Below are positions 2,485 to 32,853 of a stretch of 35,538 nt of DNA, one piece after another. The notes below the pieces were generated by a model. It was given only the letters and a program-made list of their open reading frames with translations. It had not been told where the DNA came from and did not search any database. The first letter of the stretch is position 1, and every line of letters begins with the position of its first letter. The translations under genes and the position numbers were made by a program. The stretch is taken from contig JANYIO010000272.1 in NCBI GenBank assembly GCA_025362015.1, positions 1 to 35,538 on the forward strand, read 5' to 3'. This stretch comes from Gammaproteobacteria bacterium. Lineage in GTDB: Bacteria; Pseudomonadota; Gammaproteobacteria; Pseudomonadales; Cellvibrionaceae.

Positions 2485-4200
2485 TTAAATATTCATGGCC
2501 TCCACCGCGAAACATTCGATATATTCTCCTTGCTCCAATACACCAATCCCCTTCTTGAGCGGTACACGTTTGGGGATAAAGTTGAATAGGTCGCTCCGTT
2601 CGGCATAGTGACGTATTTTATAACTGACAAGCACTTCACCTGTTTCCGCCGCAGCCTCCAACCGAGCAGCCATGCTAACAGCAACGCCTTCTAGATCAAG
2701 AATATCGGTAATTTCATTGTGAACAACAAACACCTCACCCAACTCAACACCAATACGCAATTCGAATCCAGCAGCGGTTAATACATTACGCATCATGCAA
2801 GCACAGGATAAACCCGCAGATACATTGTTGAATGTCACCCTTAATGAATCGCCTTCCATATTTGGGTGATCGGCCGACCATTTTTTGAGTATGGGTTTTA
2901 CCAGCCCACGAAACAGCGAAAGTTTTTCTGAGAGCTCATCATCTGCCCACTTTGAAAAGCCTTTCAAATCCATAAATAAAACAGTGAGGTTACGCACCTG
3001 ATCTTTTTCATGGTCTGCGGCCAACTCAAGTAAGCGCGGCCAAAACTCTTCGCGAATGGCTGCAATTTTTTCTTTGAGCTGTACATGCAATTGCGTATTA
3101 GTACGCAACACCAGTTGCGCCAGTTGAATACGATCCGCCTCAGACTGCAACTGCGCTTTTAACTGTGTCGGATTATAACTACCAACATCCTCCACAGCGA
3201 ATTGCACTAGTGCGCCACCTGCAACATCGCTGATCGATTTAAGACGTAAAACGATCCCCCAATGCACAGCGGTTAAATGCTCAATAAATATAGGAAGAGT
3301 TGCTAACTCATGGTCGGCGAGTCGGTAGGGATAACGCAATTCAATGTTGATGGATTCGGCAAAGATGCGTTCAAATTCATGATTGCGATAAACCGTTTTC
3401 TCTTTCCCAGCTTTGTTCCAATAGGCGAAATCACAAACGACCTCGGAAATCATCCAGCCGTCGGTTGTTATTTTCCAAAGTTTCGCACCGGTAATATTCG
3501 CGCGTGATAATTTTGCCTTACCGAGATTAGCTTCTCTCAAATCGCAATTTAAAAGATTGGCACTGGTGAAGTCGGCTTTATATAAATCGATACAACTCAA
3601 ATCAACGCCGTTTAAATTAGCAGATTTAAATATAGTGCCCGTCAATTTCGCATCTTTCAAATTCGCATTCATCAGGTTCGTACCCGTCATAATGGTATTT
3701 GATAAATCTGCACGCTGAAAATTGACTCCATCCAAATTGGAATTACTAAAATCTACGCGAGCGAGTTGCTGTCCTTCGAGATTGCTTCCTGCGAGTGAAA
3801 TATCTTTTAAAATCAGACCGCTGATGTCGTGGCCTTTAAAATCGATATTTTCGAGTTTTGTATTGCAGGTAATCGTCGTGAGCATGTTTGCATGGTAAAG
3901 AATTGAACCACCTAAATCGCACTTAGTAAAATTTGTGGCAATTAATTTAGCATATGAAAAATCATTATTGTGTAGGATCGAACCCTCTAGATTTGTGGAA
4001 ATAAGATCAGCATGCTTAAAACTGCAATGGGTAATTCTGGTATTGCGGATTGATATTTTCGACAAATCGATTTCATCAAGATTGATGTGCGTCAGTTCAA
4101 CACCATCCAGATTTAAATCGCCAACAGGGCGGTCTTTTCGCCAACTATTCCAGGATTTGGCGCCTTTTTTCAATTCTTCAATTAGCTGATTTTTATCCAT
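2485..4200 (-). CDS. Pentapeptide-repeat / class III nucleotide cyclase fusion protein
   Basis: A 571-residue predicted cytosolic protein. Residues about 28-245 are almost continuous pentapeptide repeats (A(D/N)LxxxxF/L pattern, for example SANLNGVDLSC), expected to form a right-handed quadrilateral beta-helix. Residues 250-350 form a mixed alpha/beta linker domain that I do not recognise with certainty. Residues about 355-400 are a coiled helix, and 402-571 are a class III adenylate/guanylate cyclase homology domain. Metal ligands are Asp411 (FMDLKGFS) and Asp451 (EGDSLRVTF). The purine-contact Asp502 (LDLEG) and the transition-state Arg513 (AARLE) are present. The Asn expected three residues before the AAR of VNxAAR is Ser509, and the base-selecting Lys before GD is Asn447. 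There is no membrane segment. The gene stands alone between dapA and nadA with a poor ribosome site. cAMP synthesis is plausible but unproven; a nucleotide sensor is the alternative. Confidence 0.85.
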   Translation of the reverse strand: MDKNQLIEELKKGAKSWNSWRKDRPVGDLNLDGVELTHINLDEIDLSKISIRNTRITHCSFKHADLISTNLEGSILHNNDFSYAKLIATNFTKCDLGGSILYHANMLTTITCNTKLENIDFKGHDISGLILKDISLAGSNLEGQQLARVDFSNSNLDGVNFQRADLSNTIMTGTNLMNANLKDAKLTGTIFKSANLNGVDLSCIDLYKADFTSANLLNCDLREANLGKAKLSRANITGAKLWKITTDGWMISEVVCDFAYWNKAGKEKTVYRNHEFERIFAESINIELRYPYRLADHELATLPIFIEHLTAVHWGIVLRLKSISDVAGGALVQFAVEDVGSYNPTQLKAQLQSEADRIQLAQLVLRTNTQLHVQLKEKIAAIREEFWPRLLELAADHEKDQVRNLTVLFMDLKGFSKWADDELSEKLSLFRGLVKPILKKWSADHPNMEGDSLRVTFNNVSAGLSCACMMRNVLTAAGFELRIGVELGEVFVVHNEITDILDLEGVAVSMAARLEAAAETGEVLVSYKIRHYAERSDLFNFIPKRVPLKKGIGVLEQGEYIECFAVEAMNI

Positions 4201-6082: not shown

Positions 6083-9000
6083 ATGCAACGTGTCTTTCAC
6101 TGGCAAGAACTCACCAAGCCAAAAGTACAGTGGTTTTACCAAATATTAATCATCATTTTGGCCTATACATTCACGGGGTGGCTCGGCCTGAGCGTTCCTT
6201 TCGACGCGGGTAAGGTGACCTTATTCTGGCTTCCAAGCGGCATAGCCGTTGCGGCGCTCTATCGTTGGAACATCAATGTTTGGCCAGGTGTTTTTTTGGG
6301 CGCTTTACTGGTAAATCTGGCAACTGGTGCCCCGCCGCTGACCAATGTCATCATCGCCTGTGGCAACACAATCGGACCAATCGTTACCATTCTTTTATTG
6401 CGCTACTCCAATTGTCGGCTGCATCAACTACAACATTCCACCGCGATAACTTTATTGGCAACCGTGAGCTTGGGGATGCTTATCCCAGCCAGTATTGGCG
6501 GCACAGCGGTAATGATTGCCAACAATATTACCTTTGACATAGCTAGTGTTAATATTTATTTACCCTGGTGGATGGGGGACAGCCTCGGCATTCTGTTGGC
6601 TGCACCGCTATTAATAAATTTCACGCGCGCCAATTTAAGTAAATTGCTGATCCAAAAAAGCAATATTTTTTGGATATTTTTCATCAGCGTTTTAGTCGGC
6701 TTAGTATGCTTTCCGCTTAATAATTTTACGGGAGACCGTCATCTACCGATCGTATTTATCAGCTTTGTTTGTGTAGCATGGGCCGCATTGAGTTTTGGTC
6801 TGCTGGGTAGCGCCATTTGCACGATAGGTTTCAGCTTTATAGCTATCTGGTCTACAGTCCATCATTTAGGTCCATTTTCTTTTACTGACATTCGGATTAA
6901 CTATTGGTTGATATGGTTTTATACCTCCAGTATGACTTGCCTTAGCCTAATGATTACTGCGGCATATGCCAAAATCCTTACCACTGCAGCAAGATTAAGT
7001 GACTCAAATCGAGAGCAAGAGAAACAAAAAAAACACTTGGAAAATGCCCAACTCATGGCACGCGTAACGCACTGGAGCTGGAATACAGAAAGCGACGCCT
7101 ACACGTTCAGTTCATCCATGAACCACCTATTTCAACTACCACCACATTTACTTAAGGGGAATTTACAAGATTTTATCCAGAAATTTATTTATCACGAAGA
7201 CAAACCCATATTAATAACAGCACTTGAAGAAATCGCTAAAGAAAAAAAGCCACTGGCAATAGAATGTCGCCTGGAAATATCAGATCAAAAATTTTGGTTA
7301 CACATCCAGGGAAGTATTTCAGAAAATAATACGCATATCATTCAAGGAACTTTTCAAGATATTACCGAACACAAACGTCTTGACCTGGCGCTTTCAGCAG
7401 CAGCAGCCGACTCTGCGACTTCACCCGATTTTTTTAACGTTATCTTAAAAGCACTCCTTCACGCAGTAGGTGCAGAGCATGCGCTTATTTGTATAATTGA
7501 TCCCGACAATGCTGACCAGGTTACCGTTCACACCTATTTAAAAAATGGCGAACCGCAAGCGCACTTTAGTTATACGCTTAAAGATACACCATGTGCTGAT
7601 GCAGTACGCGATGAAATATGCTTTATATCCGCGGGGGCATATAAACTTTATCCTAAAGATGAAATGCTCAGCACCTTCAAAATTGAAAGCTATCTTGGTG
7701 TTGTCATTAGAAATGCACAAGGAAAACCTATTGGAATTCTCATTGTTTTGGGTGAAAAATCTTTAACTATTTCAGCTCAAGTACGTTCACTGATGCTTAT
7801 ATTTGCAGAGCGAACGTCCGGAGAATTACGGCGCGCTATTGATCAGGACAAAATTTACAATCTCGCCTTTTTTGATCCCCTGACCCGTCTGCCCAATCGG
7901 CGCATGCTGTTGGATCGGCTCAAGCTGATTACCGCACAAAGCGCGCGCACCGGTCAACATAGTGCTTTATTATTTATCGATCTTGATCACTTTAAATTAC
8001 TCAATGACACTCGCGGCCACCGAACCGGTGATCTCTTACTCATTCAAGTTGCCGATCGAATTAAAAGCATTATTCGGTTAACAGATGTAGCAGCGCGCCT
8101 TGGCGGCGATGAATTTGTCGTAGTATTTGATAACTTAAATATCAACGCAGAAACCGCCGCAATGGAAGCAAAAAAACGTGCAGAAGATTTACATGAATTA
8201 CTTAACCTACCCTACCCCTTACAAGATTCGATATTTCATTGCACAGTGAGTATTGGTGTCAATTTATTTGACAGTCAAAGTACATCAATCGACGATTTAT
8301 TACGCAATGCAGATGTTGCTATGTATCAAGCTAAAGACAATGGGCGGAACACTATTCGCTTCTTTGATCCCCGCATGCAAGCCTTATTAGAAACACGTGC
8401 ATCCATAGAGTTCGATTTACGCGGTGCACAGGAGTCAGAAAAAGAGTTAATGCCTTATTACCAAGTACAAATTAATAATCAAGGTAAAGCGGTTGGTGCC
8501 GAATTACTCCTGCGCTGGAAACATGCTACAAAAGGAATGATTTCGCCTGTAGATTTTATTCCTGTAGCGGAGCAAACAGGATTAATCATAAACATAGGCA
8601 AACAAGTCATTAAACAAGCGTGTGAACAATTAAAACGCTGGCACACGCAACCACGGTTTGCCCATTTAACGATTGCCGTGAATGTTAGCCCCATTCAATT
8701 TAATCAAGAAAATTTTGTTACAGATGTAATCAATATAGTCAGCAAAAGCAATATTAATCCACGCCTATTAAAACTCGAATTAACAGAAAGCTCCCTATTA
8801 AAAAATGTGGAACAAAGCATTAAAAAAATGCAGGTTTTACAGGATATTGGAATTGATTTTTCAATGGATGATTTTGGTATTGGCTATTCATCACTGTCTT
8901 ATTTAAAACTTTTACCCTTGTATCAACTCAAAATTGATCAGACATTTGTACGCGATATTACTGTCGACCCTAATGACGCTATTATTGTGCGAACCATTAT

Positions 9001-9169
9001 TGCTATGGCGCAAAATATGAACCTGAATGTTATTGCGGAAGGTGTGGAAACTGAAACACAAAAGATTTTTTTGGAGAAAAATGGCTGCCCAATGTTTCAA
9101 GGTTATTATTTTGGTCACCCACTACCAATTGAAGAGTTTGAAAAGCACATTTTACTCAAAAACTATTAA
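6083..9169 (+). CDS. MASE1-PAS-GAF-GGDEF-EAL c-di-GMP turnover protein
   Basis: A 1028-residue inner-membrane signalling protein. Residues about 15-305 are a MASE1 sensor with eight or more membrane helices ([14 protein letters not shown] and [17 protein letters not shown] are typical). A coiled linker leads to a PAS/PAC fold (about 325-430, ending [13 protein letters not shown]), then a GAF-like domain (about 437-585), a GGDEF domain with the signature at 674-678 ([12 protein letters not shown]), and an EAL domain to the end. The diguanylate cyclase site is intact and has an inhibitory RxxD (RLTD) five residues upstream. The EAL signature reads ELLLR (Glu807 retained); the [25 protein letters not shown] and AEGVET motifs are present, so phosphodiesterase activity is possible. 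Its stop overlaps the queC stop tail to tail. The ligand is unknown. Confidence 0.94.
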
Positions 9170-12443: not shown

Positions 12444-13505
12444 TTAGAGCAAATCTTTGCTTTTAAAATACCAGTAAGGTACAGCAGCAGAAAGCACCAT
12501 CAATAGCAAACCAACCACCCAACCATATTGCACAGATTTTAAAAGCGACATATCGTCAAAGTTCATCCCCCAAAAACTCGCCACCATCGTAGGCGGGAGG
12601 AAAATAACCGATGCGACTGAGAAAGTTTTAATAATCTGGTTTTGCTCGATGTTGATAAAGCCTTGCGTAGAATCCATTAAGAAGTTGATTTTGTCGAACA
12701 AAAATGCGGTATGTGACATAAGCGTATCCACATCGCGTTTAATTTCACGGGCTGTTTCTTGCAACTCAAGGTTGTCGCGAATATAACGCTGTAAAAATGA
12801 AATAGAGCGCTGTGTATCCATCAAACACAAGCGAATTTTTCCATTGCTGTCTTCCAACTTGGCCAGCTTATCAATCGCATCTTCCAGCTCCGAATCTTCA
12901 TCTTCAAGTACCAGATGACTGACCTCTTCCAGGGTGCGATGAATATCTTCCAAAGCATCGGCAAGGTTTTCAACCTTTTGTTCAAACATAGTAATGAGTA
13001 AATCTTGCGGTGAAGCAACATGCACCTGGCCGCGACGTGCGCGCATCCGTAGGAGACGGAAATCTGCCAGGTCGCCTTCACGCACAGTAATTAAGCGTTT
13101 ATCCTGCAAGAGAAAAGCAACCGTAACGGTATTATGGCGGCCTGCCTCACCGGGCGATAAAAACAGTGAATGAACATGAATACCTTCATCATCTTGAAAA
13201 TAACGCGCCGAGAATTCAATCTCCTCTACATCATCTGACTCGGGCAATTCTGCACGCAAAAAACTATTTAACGCATCCCGCTCTTCGTCGCTGGCTTCAT
13301 GCGCATCAATCCAAATTGCACTGGCCATAGACAATTTTAGCGATTCGCCAGTGTGATTCTCTTTATCCAAAACAGCATCTTCACGAAGACCTGCATCTTC
13401 ATGCAACCCAGCATCTTCACGCACCTCTCCACGTAAACCAGTATCTTCACGCAAGACAGTATCTTCACGCAAAGTAGTACCTTGAACTTTAAACATTCTT
13501 AACAT
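12444..13505 (-). CDS. corA: CorA-type magnesium/divalent cation transporter with N-terminal repeat
   Basis: 353 residues. The large N-terminal cytoplasmic alpha/beta domain and long helix lead to two C-terminal membrane helices with the selectivity motif GMN at 313-315 (FWGMNFDDM), ending in YFKSKDLL. CorA works as a pentamer carrying Mg2+ (also Co2+ and Ni2+) inward; ZntB, the related Zn2+ carrier, is less likely given this sequence. Unusually, residues about 12-45 are a hexapeptide repeat (LREDTV, LREDTG, VREDAG, LHEDAG, LREDAV) encoded by 18-bp units and inserted before the conserved AIWIDAHEAS. The start is firm: GAGGAG precedes the ATG. It is 143 bp downstream of lpxL and probably has its own promoter. 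No Mg-box leader was recognised. Confidence 0.93.
   Translation of the reverse strand: MLRMFKVQGTTLREDTVLREDTGLRGEVREDAGLHEDAGLREDAVLDKENHTGESLKLSMASAIWIDAHEASDEERDALNSFLRAELPESDDVEEIEFSARYFQDDEGIHVHSLFLSPGEAGRHNTVTVAFLLQDKRLITVREGDLADFRLLRMRARRGQVHVASPQDLLITMFEQKVENLADALEDIHRTLEEVSHLVLEDEDSELEDAIDKLAKLEDSNGKIRLCLMDTQRSISFLQRYIRDNLELQETAREIKRDVDTLMSHTAFLFDKINFLMDSTQGFINIEQNQIIKTFSVASVIFLPPTMVASFWGMNFDDMSLLKSVQYGWVVGLLLMVLSAAVPYWYFKSKDLL
13375..13476 (-). repeat. 18-bp tandem repeat within corA
   Basis: Plus-strand units of the form G(C/T)ATCTTCACGCAAnnnn lie at 13375-13392, 13393-13410, 13411-13428, 13441-13458 and 13459-13476, with a 12-bp partial copy at 13429-13440. The reading frame is kept because every length is a multiple of three. 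Copies differ at a few positions, so the expansion is not brand new. Confidence 0.9.
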
Positions 13506-30552: not shown

Positions 30553-32853
30553 CTATTTTTTAACACTAAATTTGGTAGAAATTAAGGCTTGTTGTTCAAA
30601 TAATAAATCAATGTTATACCCGCCATCAGCAAAACCAGTTACCGGTTGCTCAATGCGAAAAAACTTAAGCCCACTCGAACCGTTAATAACAACAGGTACC
30701 TGTGCAATCTGTAAGCTGCGCGACCCATCATAAAGAATAGCCTGCAAGACAGAAGCATCACCTTTAAAATTACGATATTCAAAACCTATATAAATAATCC
30801 GCTCGGCAGCGATGGACGGATCTTGCTGCGCTAATTTATTGACTTCATTACTCGTTACCAACAACCGCGATACAGTAGGCACCTTGTCTGCAATCGCATG
30901 CTCGAGATCCATGGACAATCCTAGCAATGCTTTACTTTGCGGAAAACTTTCACGTGCATTAACCAGCTCTGCTGAAGCGTCGGTAAATTTCTCTTCACTG
31001 ATTAACTGATCAATTCTTTTTACCACTAAATTTTCAACCGCAATTACACCTGCACGCGCAGCAGAATGTTGAGCATTCTGCGCCAGTAATTCACGATAGG
31101 TTTTCAACGCATTGTCGCCACTCGGTGCAATAAGTTTGCCTGCCGCTTGTTGTACTTTGGCTGTATTCAATAAATCCTGTTCAATATTTTGTTGCTTTTG
31201 TTTTAACTGACTTAACTCCTTTTGTTTTTGCTGCTGTTGTTGCTGTTGCAATGCCGCTTTCTGCAACTGTTCATTGGCAGCCTTAGCAATATTCAAGGCT
31301 GTTAACGCATCTTGTAACGCCGCTATTTTTTCATCAGCAGCGAATACAACTTCGGCAGAGTTCGCATACTCTTGCGCTACACTCATAGCATTTTCTTGTT
31401 GCGAATTTTTAATTAAATTAGCGTAAAAATTTTGCAACTCGTCCAGGCCTGCTTGCGCTGCTTGTCGTTCATCAGCATTATTACTGTTAACTCCTTTACG
31501 ATAAATACTGGCCAGCTCAGGTGCAAATCGCCAATCTTGCTTTAAAGAATCACGTAAAACTTTTATTTGCTCCATGAACGTTGGCTGCGCATCAACTGCA
31601 GGCTGCTCAATGGTAGTAGACTGCGCTGTGTTAGCAGGCGGCTCTGTGTTAGTAGACTGTGCTGTGGATACTTGTGGCTCAGGCTGTATTGCAGACTTAG
31701 ATTCAGATTGTATTGTCGGAGCAACCAATGCAGGCTTATCAATGACTGGCACATCGATTTTGGCAACAAAATATTCTTGCCAACGCTGTTTAATATCTTC
31801 TTGAAAATAAAAACTCGTCGCAGCCACAGCAATAATCAAACTTAATGCAAGCCACCCACCATTACTATTTGATTTTTTGGGCGGATTGGAATTGTGCCGC
31901 ACAATACGATCTTCAGACCGTGCCACTATAGTATTGTTATGCGCAAGCTCATTAGTCTCGTGCCGCTTCGCTTTTCGCTCAACAACTTTTATGGGCTTAG
32001 GAAACGTTTTATCATCCGTAGTTTCTCGCGTACTAGCTTCAGCAACGGACGCCAATACATGAGCAGGAATTGCATCCAATGCGGCAATAAATTCAGCGCC
32101 CGTTTGGTAACGTCGCTCAGGATTTTTTGCCATAATTTTGTCAATGATTGGTTGAAAAACTTCTAAATAGGGAGGTAAACAGGGAATATCTTCACTGATA
32201 TGCATAATGCCAACAACAACGGCTGATTCGCCATCATAAGGCACAGCGCCAGTTACCAATAAAAATAATACTACGCCTAAGCTATAAAGATCAGATCGGG
32301 GATCAACCGATAATCCTTTGGCTTGTTCCGGGCTCATGTAATGGGGCGTGCCTATAGCAATGCCCACTTGTGTCATGCCCGAAGCAGTATCTGAAGGTCG
32401 CGCAATACCAAAATCCATCAATACGGCGCGGCCATCTTCTTCATGTAACATAATATTTTCAGGTTTTACATCGCGATGGACATAACCTTTTTTACCCGCA
32501 AAATCCAATGCCCGAGCGATTTCTTTAACAACCCTCAAGCGATCAAGCAAACTCAAGTCTAAACGCTTGTGAGTCAAATCTTTACCGGGAACATATTCCA
32601 TGGATAAAAAATAATACCCATTATGAATACCGACATCATAAACACTCACAATATTAGGATGGACTAAACGGCTAACAATTTTCGCCTCGCGTAAAAAACG
32701 CTCACCAAAGTTATCATCGGCAAGTAGATCAGGAGACATTACCTTAAGCGCCACTTCACGCTCAAAACTTTCCTGTATCGCGAGATAAACAGTCGCCATG
32801 CCTCCTTTGCCAAGGATGCTTTTAATTTTATATCCCGGTAACTCAATCTGCAT
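30553..32853 (-). CDS. Membrane Ser/Thr protein kinase (PknB-like) with large extracytoplasmic region
   Basis: 766 residues. The N-terminal Hanks-type kinase (about 7-270) has GKGGMATVYLA (P-loop), ALKVMS (ATP lysine), HRDVKPEN (Asp128 catalytic), MDFGIA and GTPHYMSPEQ, so it should be active. A linker leads to one membrane helix (GGWLALSLIIAVAATSFYF, about 330-350). The periplasmic part begins with a Gln/Thr/Pro-rich spacer with a 12-residue repeat (NTAQSTTIEQPA), continues through long helices with a Gln run (ALQQQQQQQKQKEL), and ends in a beta-sandwich-like domain (ERIIYIGFEYRNFKG...LISTKFSVKK). There are no PASTA domains. The substrate is unknown and no phosphatase lies nearby. The ATG lacks a ribosome site. 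It heads a two-gene unit with the lipoprotein. Confidence 0.93.
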   Translation of the reverse strand: MQIELPGYKIKSILGKGGMATVYLAIQESFEREVALKVMSPDLLADDNFGERFLREAKIVSRLVHPNIVSVYDVGIHNGYYFLSMEYVPGKDLTHKRLDLSLLDRLRVVKEIARALDFAGKKGYVHRDVKPENIMLHEEDGRAVLMDFGIARPSDTASGMTQVGIAIGTPHYMSPEQAKGLSVDPRSDLYSLGVVLFLLVTGAVPYDGESAVVVGIMHISEDIPCLPPYLEVFQPIIDKIMAKNPERRYQTGAEFIAALDAIPAHVLASVAEASTRETTDDKTFPKPIKVVERKAKRHETNELAHNNTIVARSEDRIVRHNSNPPKKSNSNGGWLALSLIIAVAATSFYFQEDIKQRWQEYFVAKIDVPVIDKPALVAPTIQSESKSAIQPEPQVSTAQSTNTEPPANTAQSTTIEQPAVDAQPTFMEQIKVLRDSLKQDWRFAPELASIYRKGVNSNNADERQAAQAGLDELQNFYANLIKNSQQENAMSVAQEYANSAEVVFAADEKIAALQDALTALNIAKAANEQLQKAALQQQQQQQKQKELSQLKQKQQNIEQDLLNTAKVQQAAGKLIAPSGDNALKTYRELLAQNAQHSAARAGVIAVENLVVKRIDQLISEEKFTDASAELVNARESFPQSKALLGLSMDLEHAIADKVPTVSRLLVTSNEVNKLAQQDPSIAAERIIYIGFEYRNFKGDASVLQAILYDGSRSLQIAQVPVVINGSSGLKFFRIEQPVTGFADGGYNIDLLFEQQALISTKFSVKK
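31615..31670 (-). repeat. 36-bp in-frame repeat in the kinase periplasmic spacer
   Basis: AGTAGACTG(C/T)GCTGTG occurs at 31615-31630 and 31651-31666 (period 36), giving the repeated AQST in the Thr/Pro/Gln spacer after the membrane helix. It is low-complexity, probably a flexible tether. Confidence 0.6.

Follow-up and report, generated by a model that had tools for sequence, protein, structure and literature searches.

A pentapeptide-repeat beta-helix joined to a predicted class III adenylate cyclase in Cellvibrionaceae and related Gammaproteobacteria

Gene and domain architecture

The window analyzed here, a 35,538-nucleotide stretch of contig JANYIO010000272.1 from a member of the Cellvibrionaceae, carries on its minus strand (2485..4200) an open reading frame with an ATG start that encodes a protein of 571 amino acids. 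Cellvibrio and further Cellvibrionaceae carry full-length orthologues of this gene as single copies. Purifying selection on the gene is strong and constrains the catalytic half most tightly; in a comparison with a close Cellvibrio orthologue that is 77% identical, dN was approximately 0.08 for the cyclase domain, 0.09 for the middle domain, and 0.23 for the beta-helix, with dS being saturated. An AlphaFold2 model made with 40 natural sequences as input (mean pLDDT, 88; pTM, 0.60) places a beta-helix first, followed by a beta-alpha-beta-beta-alpha domain, helices spanning residues 344 to 399, and a cyclase fold beginning at residue 403; the pTM is modest, so the relative placement of the domains in the model is untrustworthy. 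The first-pass annotation of this DNA had described pentapeptide repeats linked through a domain of ~100 residues and a helix to a cyclase and had proposed structure prediction as a check. That order is confirmed by the AlphaFold2 model, by the PF00805 and PF00211 matches, and by a test of the repeat register.

The beta-helix (residues ~27 to 255; 3436..4122, minus strand) is built from 43 tandem repeats of the A(D/N)LXX type that characterizes PF00805 pentapeptide-repeat proteins, and it matched that family with an E value of 4.9e-42. The five-residue register is unbroken from residue 31 to residue 241, 42 of the 43 repeat centers are hydrophobic (L, F, I, M, or V), and the register score over residues 27 to 256 is 43, whereas the highest of 10,000 shuffles reached 26. 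Foldseek matched this part of the model to HetL (PDB 3du1) and to designed beta1 solenoids. Pentapeptide-repeat proteins are abundant, and a role is known for few of them. The repeats of HetL, NP275-NP276, MfpA, and Qnr form a right-handed quadrilateral beta-helix, as do those of the window protein. Unlike HetL, MfpA, and Qnr, however, the window protein has its repeats fused to a cyclase, and it scores far under the curated cut-offs for those proteins.

Next to the beta-helix lies a small alpha/beta domain (residues ~262 to 347; 3160..3417, minus strand) with a ferredoxin-like beta-alpha-beta-beta-alpha order, which has three strands rather than four both in the full-length model and in a model of the domain taken separately. 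Pfam searches with 32 members and a PDB profile search returned nothing significant for this domain, and a Foldseek comparison of the separate model with the PDB gave no match at an E value of ≤0.001; the top matches, at 0.05, were to small alpha/beta proteins, and designed ferredoxin folds ranked just below them. Outside the cyclase architecture the domain was absent among 144 Cellvibrionaceae genomes, and 399 genomes across the phylum yielded no convincing other architecture and one borderline partial match (E = 0.0045). Bacterial TRADD-N proteins join an RRM-like domain to pentapeptide repeats and once to a nucleotide cyclase (PMC8195603), and they resemble the window protein in placing a small alpha/beta domain beside repeats and, in that one case, beside a cyclase. 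TRADD-N is, however, a four-stranded RRM-like sandwich with a conserved tiny-Ser turn motif, whereas the window domain has three strands and the motif is not clearly seen in it. A link to TRADD-N is supported neither by the strand number nor by the fold search of the PDB, which gave no significant match, and no TRADD structure was among the 50 Foldseek matches listed for the domain.

The long helices that follow (residues 344 to 399; 3004..3171, minus strand) include a "PRLLELA" segment and the conserved residues W387, P388, L391, and E392. As modeled, they likely form a coiled-coil linker into the cyclase.

The cyclase domain and its active-site columns

The catalytic domain (residues ~403 to 566; 2503..2994, minus strand) has the class III hallmarks of a PF00211 score above cut-off, a cyclase homology domain fold, the metal-binding aspartates together with the transition-state arginine, and Asp502. 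PF00211 scored 26.9 bits on the window protein (cut-off, 21.9) and matched all 17 of the 17 members of set A1; the score is modest and the match covers just the C-terminal part of the domain, which counts against reading the protein as an active cyclase. The closest cyclase folds are those of the adenylyl cyclases Ma1120, CyaB, and Rv1900c. Ma1120 gave the best Foldseek cyclase match (E value of ~4e-10, versus 2e-9 for Rv1900c, with a TMt of ~0.85 to both), and sequence profiles place Rv1900c nearest among solved cyclases.

Both metal-binding aspartates, Asp411 (2968..2970) and Asp451 (2848..2850), and the transition-state arginine, Arg513 (2662..2664), all encoded on the minus strand, are invariant in an alignment of 53 members, as the first-pass annotation of the window protein would lead one to expect. 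The same is true of Asp502 (2695..2697, minus strand), at the second base-selecting column, a retained residue absent from that annotation. Asn447 (2860..2862, minus strand) stands before the GD motif in the first base column in place of Lys, and it too shows no variation across the alignment; no member with Lys447 was found among those read. Ser509 (2674..2676, minus strand) occupies the Asn of the VNxAAR motif, the ribose and transition-state column, where 30 of the 53 members have Ser and 23 have Asn, with variation among close relatives. In a tree built without the surrounding columns, two changes suffice to account for the history of column 509, and one of them parts Aliikangiella coralliicola, which has Asn, from its closest relatives, which have Ser. 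Lys at the first base column is typical of adenylyl cyclases but not universal, and Asn at the ribose column of class III cyclases is likewise common but not universal.

The two substitutions had been singled out in the first-pass annotation, and both were read correctly; alignment through the profiles of Rv1900c and Ma1120 confirms that 447 and 509 are the Lys and Asn columns. In these profiles, position 447 corresponds to Asn in Rv1900c and Lys in Ma1120, and position 509 corresponds to His in Rv1900c and Ala in Ma1120. The annotation had also reasoned that homologues with the canonical residues and ordinary adenylate cyclase activity would make the variant unremarkable. Homologues with the canonical residue exist for column 509 (the 23 members with Asn), whereas the replacement at column 447 is shared by every member read. 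The genome-scan pattern that brought in the Kangiella group contained PNMEGDSL, so the invariance of Asn447 in that group is partly a product of how its members were selected; the searches of Cellvibrionaceae are free of this bias. Among 33 rows aligned from other loci, three (L083, L086, and L087) have Asn in an NTAGD motif, and Ser does not occur at the Asn column in any of the 33.

Characterized enzymes show comparable residues at these positions. Rv1900c (LipJ) of Mycobacterium tuberculosis (PDB 1ybt and 1ybu), in addition to sharing the fold, resembles the window protein in its Asn at the Lys column, its Asp at the base column, and its residue other than Asn at the ribose column. It differs in carrying an alpha/beta-hydrolase domain instead of the beta-helix, in having His where the window protein has Ser at the Asn column, and in a shorter segment preceding the base Asp. 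A passage of PMC4886424 cites Rv1900c as evidence that adenylyl cyclase activity does not require the Asn. Ma1120 of Mycobacterium avium likewise has the class III fold and lacks the ribose-column Asn but differs from the window protein in keeping the canonical Lys101 and in having no beta-helix; it is an active adenylyl cyclase with Ala164 at the Asn column, and the A164N change drastically lowered its activity (PMC4215837). Because Rv1900c has Asn and His and the active Ma1120 has Ala at these columns, functional inference from the substitutions is weak, and the occurrence of such replacements in working enzymes gives no pointer to strange chemistry.

Family distribution and genomic context

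Among 84,980 species genomes scanned, 44 loci were found, all near full length and of one architecture, mainly in the Cellvibrionaceae, Kangiellaceae, and Pleioneaceae, with some in unplaced Gammaproteobacteria. When the window protein was searched against 97 related genomes, 19 full-length members were recovered, counting that of the window. With a middle-domain profile, 21 of 144 Cellvibrionaceae genomes were positive, each with a single copy in an open frame of ~580 to 620 codons, while a profile of the middle and cyclase domains run against 274 Gammaproteobacteria found cyclase-domain matches only, apart from the window. The family architecture is stable and narrowly spread among the genomes sampled. 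Both the family of pentapeptide-repeat class III cyclases and its architecture appear to be undescribed and are what is new here; in the literature searched, neither pentapeptide repeats linked with a class III cyclase nor Kangiella together with adenylate cyclase was found.

Besides a class I cyclase, the genome that contains the window has three further class III matches and 12 cyclic nucleotide (cNMP)-binding matches. Another class III cyclase domain in this genome (L003; G000:C207:417-923), in a frame of 796 codons, has Glu at the Lys column (IEFAGD), and its base choice may differ. In each of ten Kangiella-group genomes, PF00211 had exactly one match, which was the family protein in a frame of 586 to 613 codons, and no class I cyclase (PF01295) was found in the same ten; the cyclase classes covered by the search were I and III. 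Four Pleionea and Aliikangiella genomes in this search contained both class I and class III enzymes. In K. taiwanensis, the one Kangiella genome checked for cNMP-binding proteins, there is a single such protein, a Vfr/CRP orthologue that matched solved Vfr with an E value of 4.4e-92 and aligned to Vfr and CRP over almost its full length. This genome content, a sole detected class III cyclase in the group and CRP in one genome, is the strongest hint of function, and the members concerned carry Asn509 and not Ser509.

In the window, the neighbors of the cyclase gene are bamC, dapA, nadA, and a gene for a MASE1-GGDEF-EAL protein; no neighbor is conserved family-wide, and none is conserved across Cellvibrio either. 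The last of these lies near the cyclase at 6083-9169 on the plus strand and reads as a MASE1-GAF-GGDEF-EAL protein. GGDEF-EAL proteins are also encoded near some other family members, though the adjacency is not constant. The gene immediately downstream of the cyclase in Kangiella and its relatives encodes a beta-propeller protein of the PD40 type, apparently with a signal peptide, a placement seen at 23 of the 44 loci (for example, L067:6955-7839 and L078:6942-7820). The Kangiella gene begins within a few bases of the cyclase, which suggests an operon.

Predicted function and alternative explanations

The reading of this protein as a beta-helix joined to a cyclase stands, since its architecture and the two substitutions are genuine and conserved. 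The first-pass annotation had gone further and suggested unusual nucleotide choice or low activity, which is unsupported in view of the Rv1900c and Ma1120 precedents, Asp502 in 53 of 53 members, Asn509 in 23 of 53, and the content of the Kangiella genomes. The likeliest reading is an adenylate cyclase, predicted to be active and ordinary, whose architecture is undescribed: with a probability that we place at roughly 0.65, the protein is a soluble, homodimeric class III adenylate cyclase with an Rv1900c-like Asn/Asp base pair and with the beta-helix as a docking or sensing module. A homodimer would convert ATP to cAMP, both the dimerization and the product being predicted; the N-terminal pentapeptide beta-helix would dock a protein or sense a signal; and the ferredoxin-like domain and helices would relay the state of the beta-helix to the catalytic dimer. 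Regulation of the cyclase by the beta-helix is plausible. The family protein may act in Cellvibrio as an extra cyclase beside the class I enzyme CyaA and in Kangiella is probably the main source of cAMP for CRP. A broader and more tentative proposal is that the family consists of beta-helix-gated cyclases with a fixed Asn/Asp base pair that serve as the chief or sole supply of cAMP for CRP in Kangiella, where a partner bound to the rod would set cAMP signaling.

A relaxed or different base choice, with cGMP or both cAMP and cGMP as products owing to Asn447, would fit the presence of Asn at the Lys column in every member and the purported adenylyl and guanylyl activities of Rv1900c, which a passage of PMC4886424 ascribes to the lack of an Asn equivalent. 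The second base reader is nevertheless an adenylyl-type Asp, whereas guanylyl cyclases are reported to carry Glu at the Lys column and C, S, T, H, A, or G in place of the Asp (PMC4215837). In K. taiwanensis, moreover, CRP occurs beside the family enzyme, and a further cyclase of class I or III was not found; we regard this alternative as unlikely. Slightly less probable again is a weak or dead cyclase domain that serves as a scaffold or senses nucleotides. In its favor, two of the six classic columns of the active site are noncanonical and the PF00211 score is weak, but the metal and catalytic residues are all invariant in 53 members, the gene is under strong purifying selection, and natural active enzymes have the same or similar replacements.

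A defense-type cyclase or an immune-like effector, either Pycsar-like or a TRADD-N-like adaptor fusion, is very improbable. The protein has a weak PADLOC match to PycC (E = 0.0043 over 30 residues), and the TRADD-N proteins noted above offer a pairing of an RRM-like domain with pentapeptide repeats (PMC8195603). Pycsar cyclases, however, are recognized by a PycC profile match across the catalytic domain and by an adjacent effector gene, and neither was found here; the window neighbors nadA and dapA are not effectors. The single copy per genome in those Cellvibrionaceae that have the gene and the three-stranded middle domain, which lacks a significant fold match and any TRADD structure in its 50 listed matches, also argue against a defense role.

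In this natural fusion of a rod with a cyclase, the activity with and without the rod would report directly on what the rod senses. Whether CRP signaling can be supplied by a class III enzyme lacking the canonical Lys could be tested cleanly with the Kangiella genomes, and the outcome would help to sort the essential from the dispensable base-selecting residues.

Elsewhere in the window, the gene for a CorA-type transporter (12444-13505, minus strand) encodes several N-terminal near-repeats of the form LREDxG or LREDAG, and its true start may lie further in. A large protein encoded at 30553-32853 on the minus strand has a start that, by eye, resembles a Ser/Thr protein kinase.
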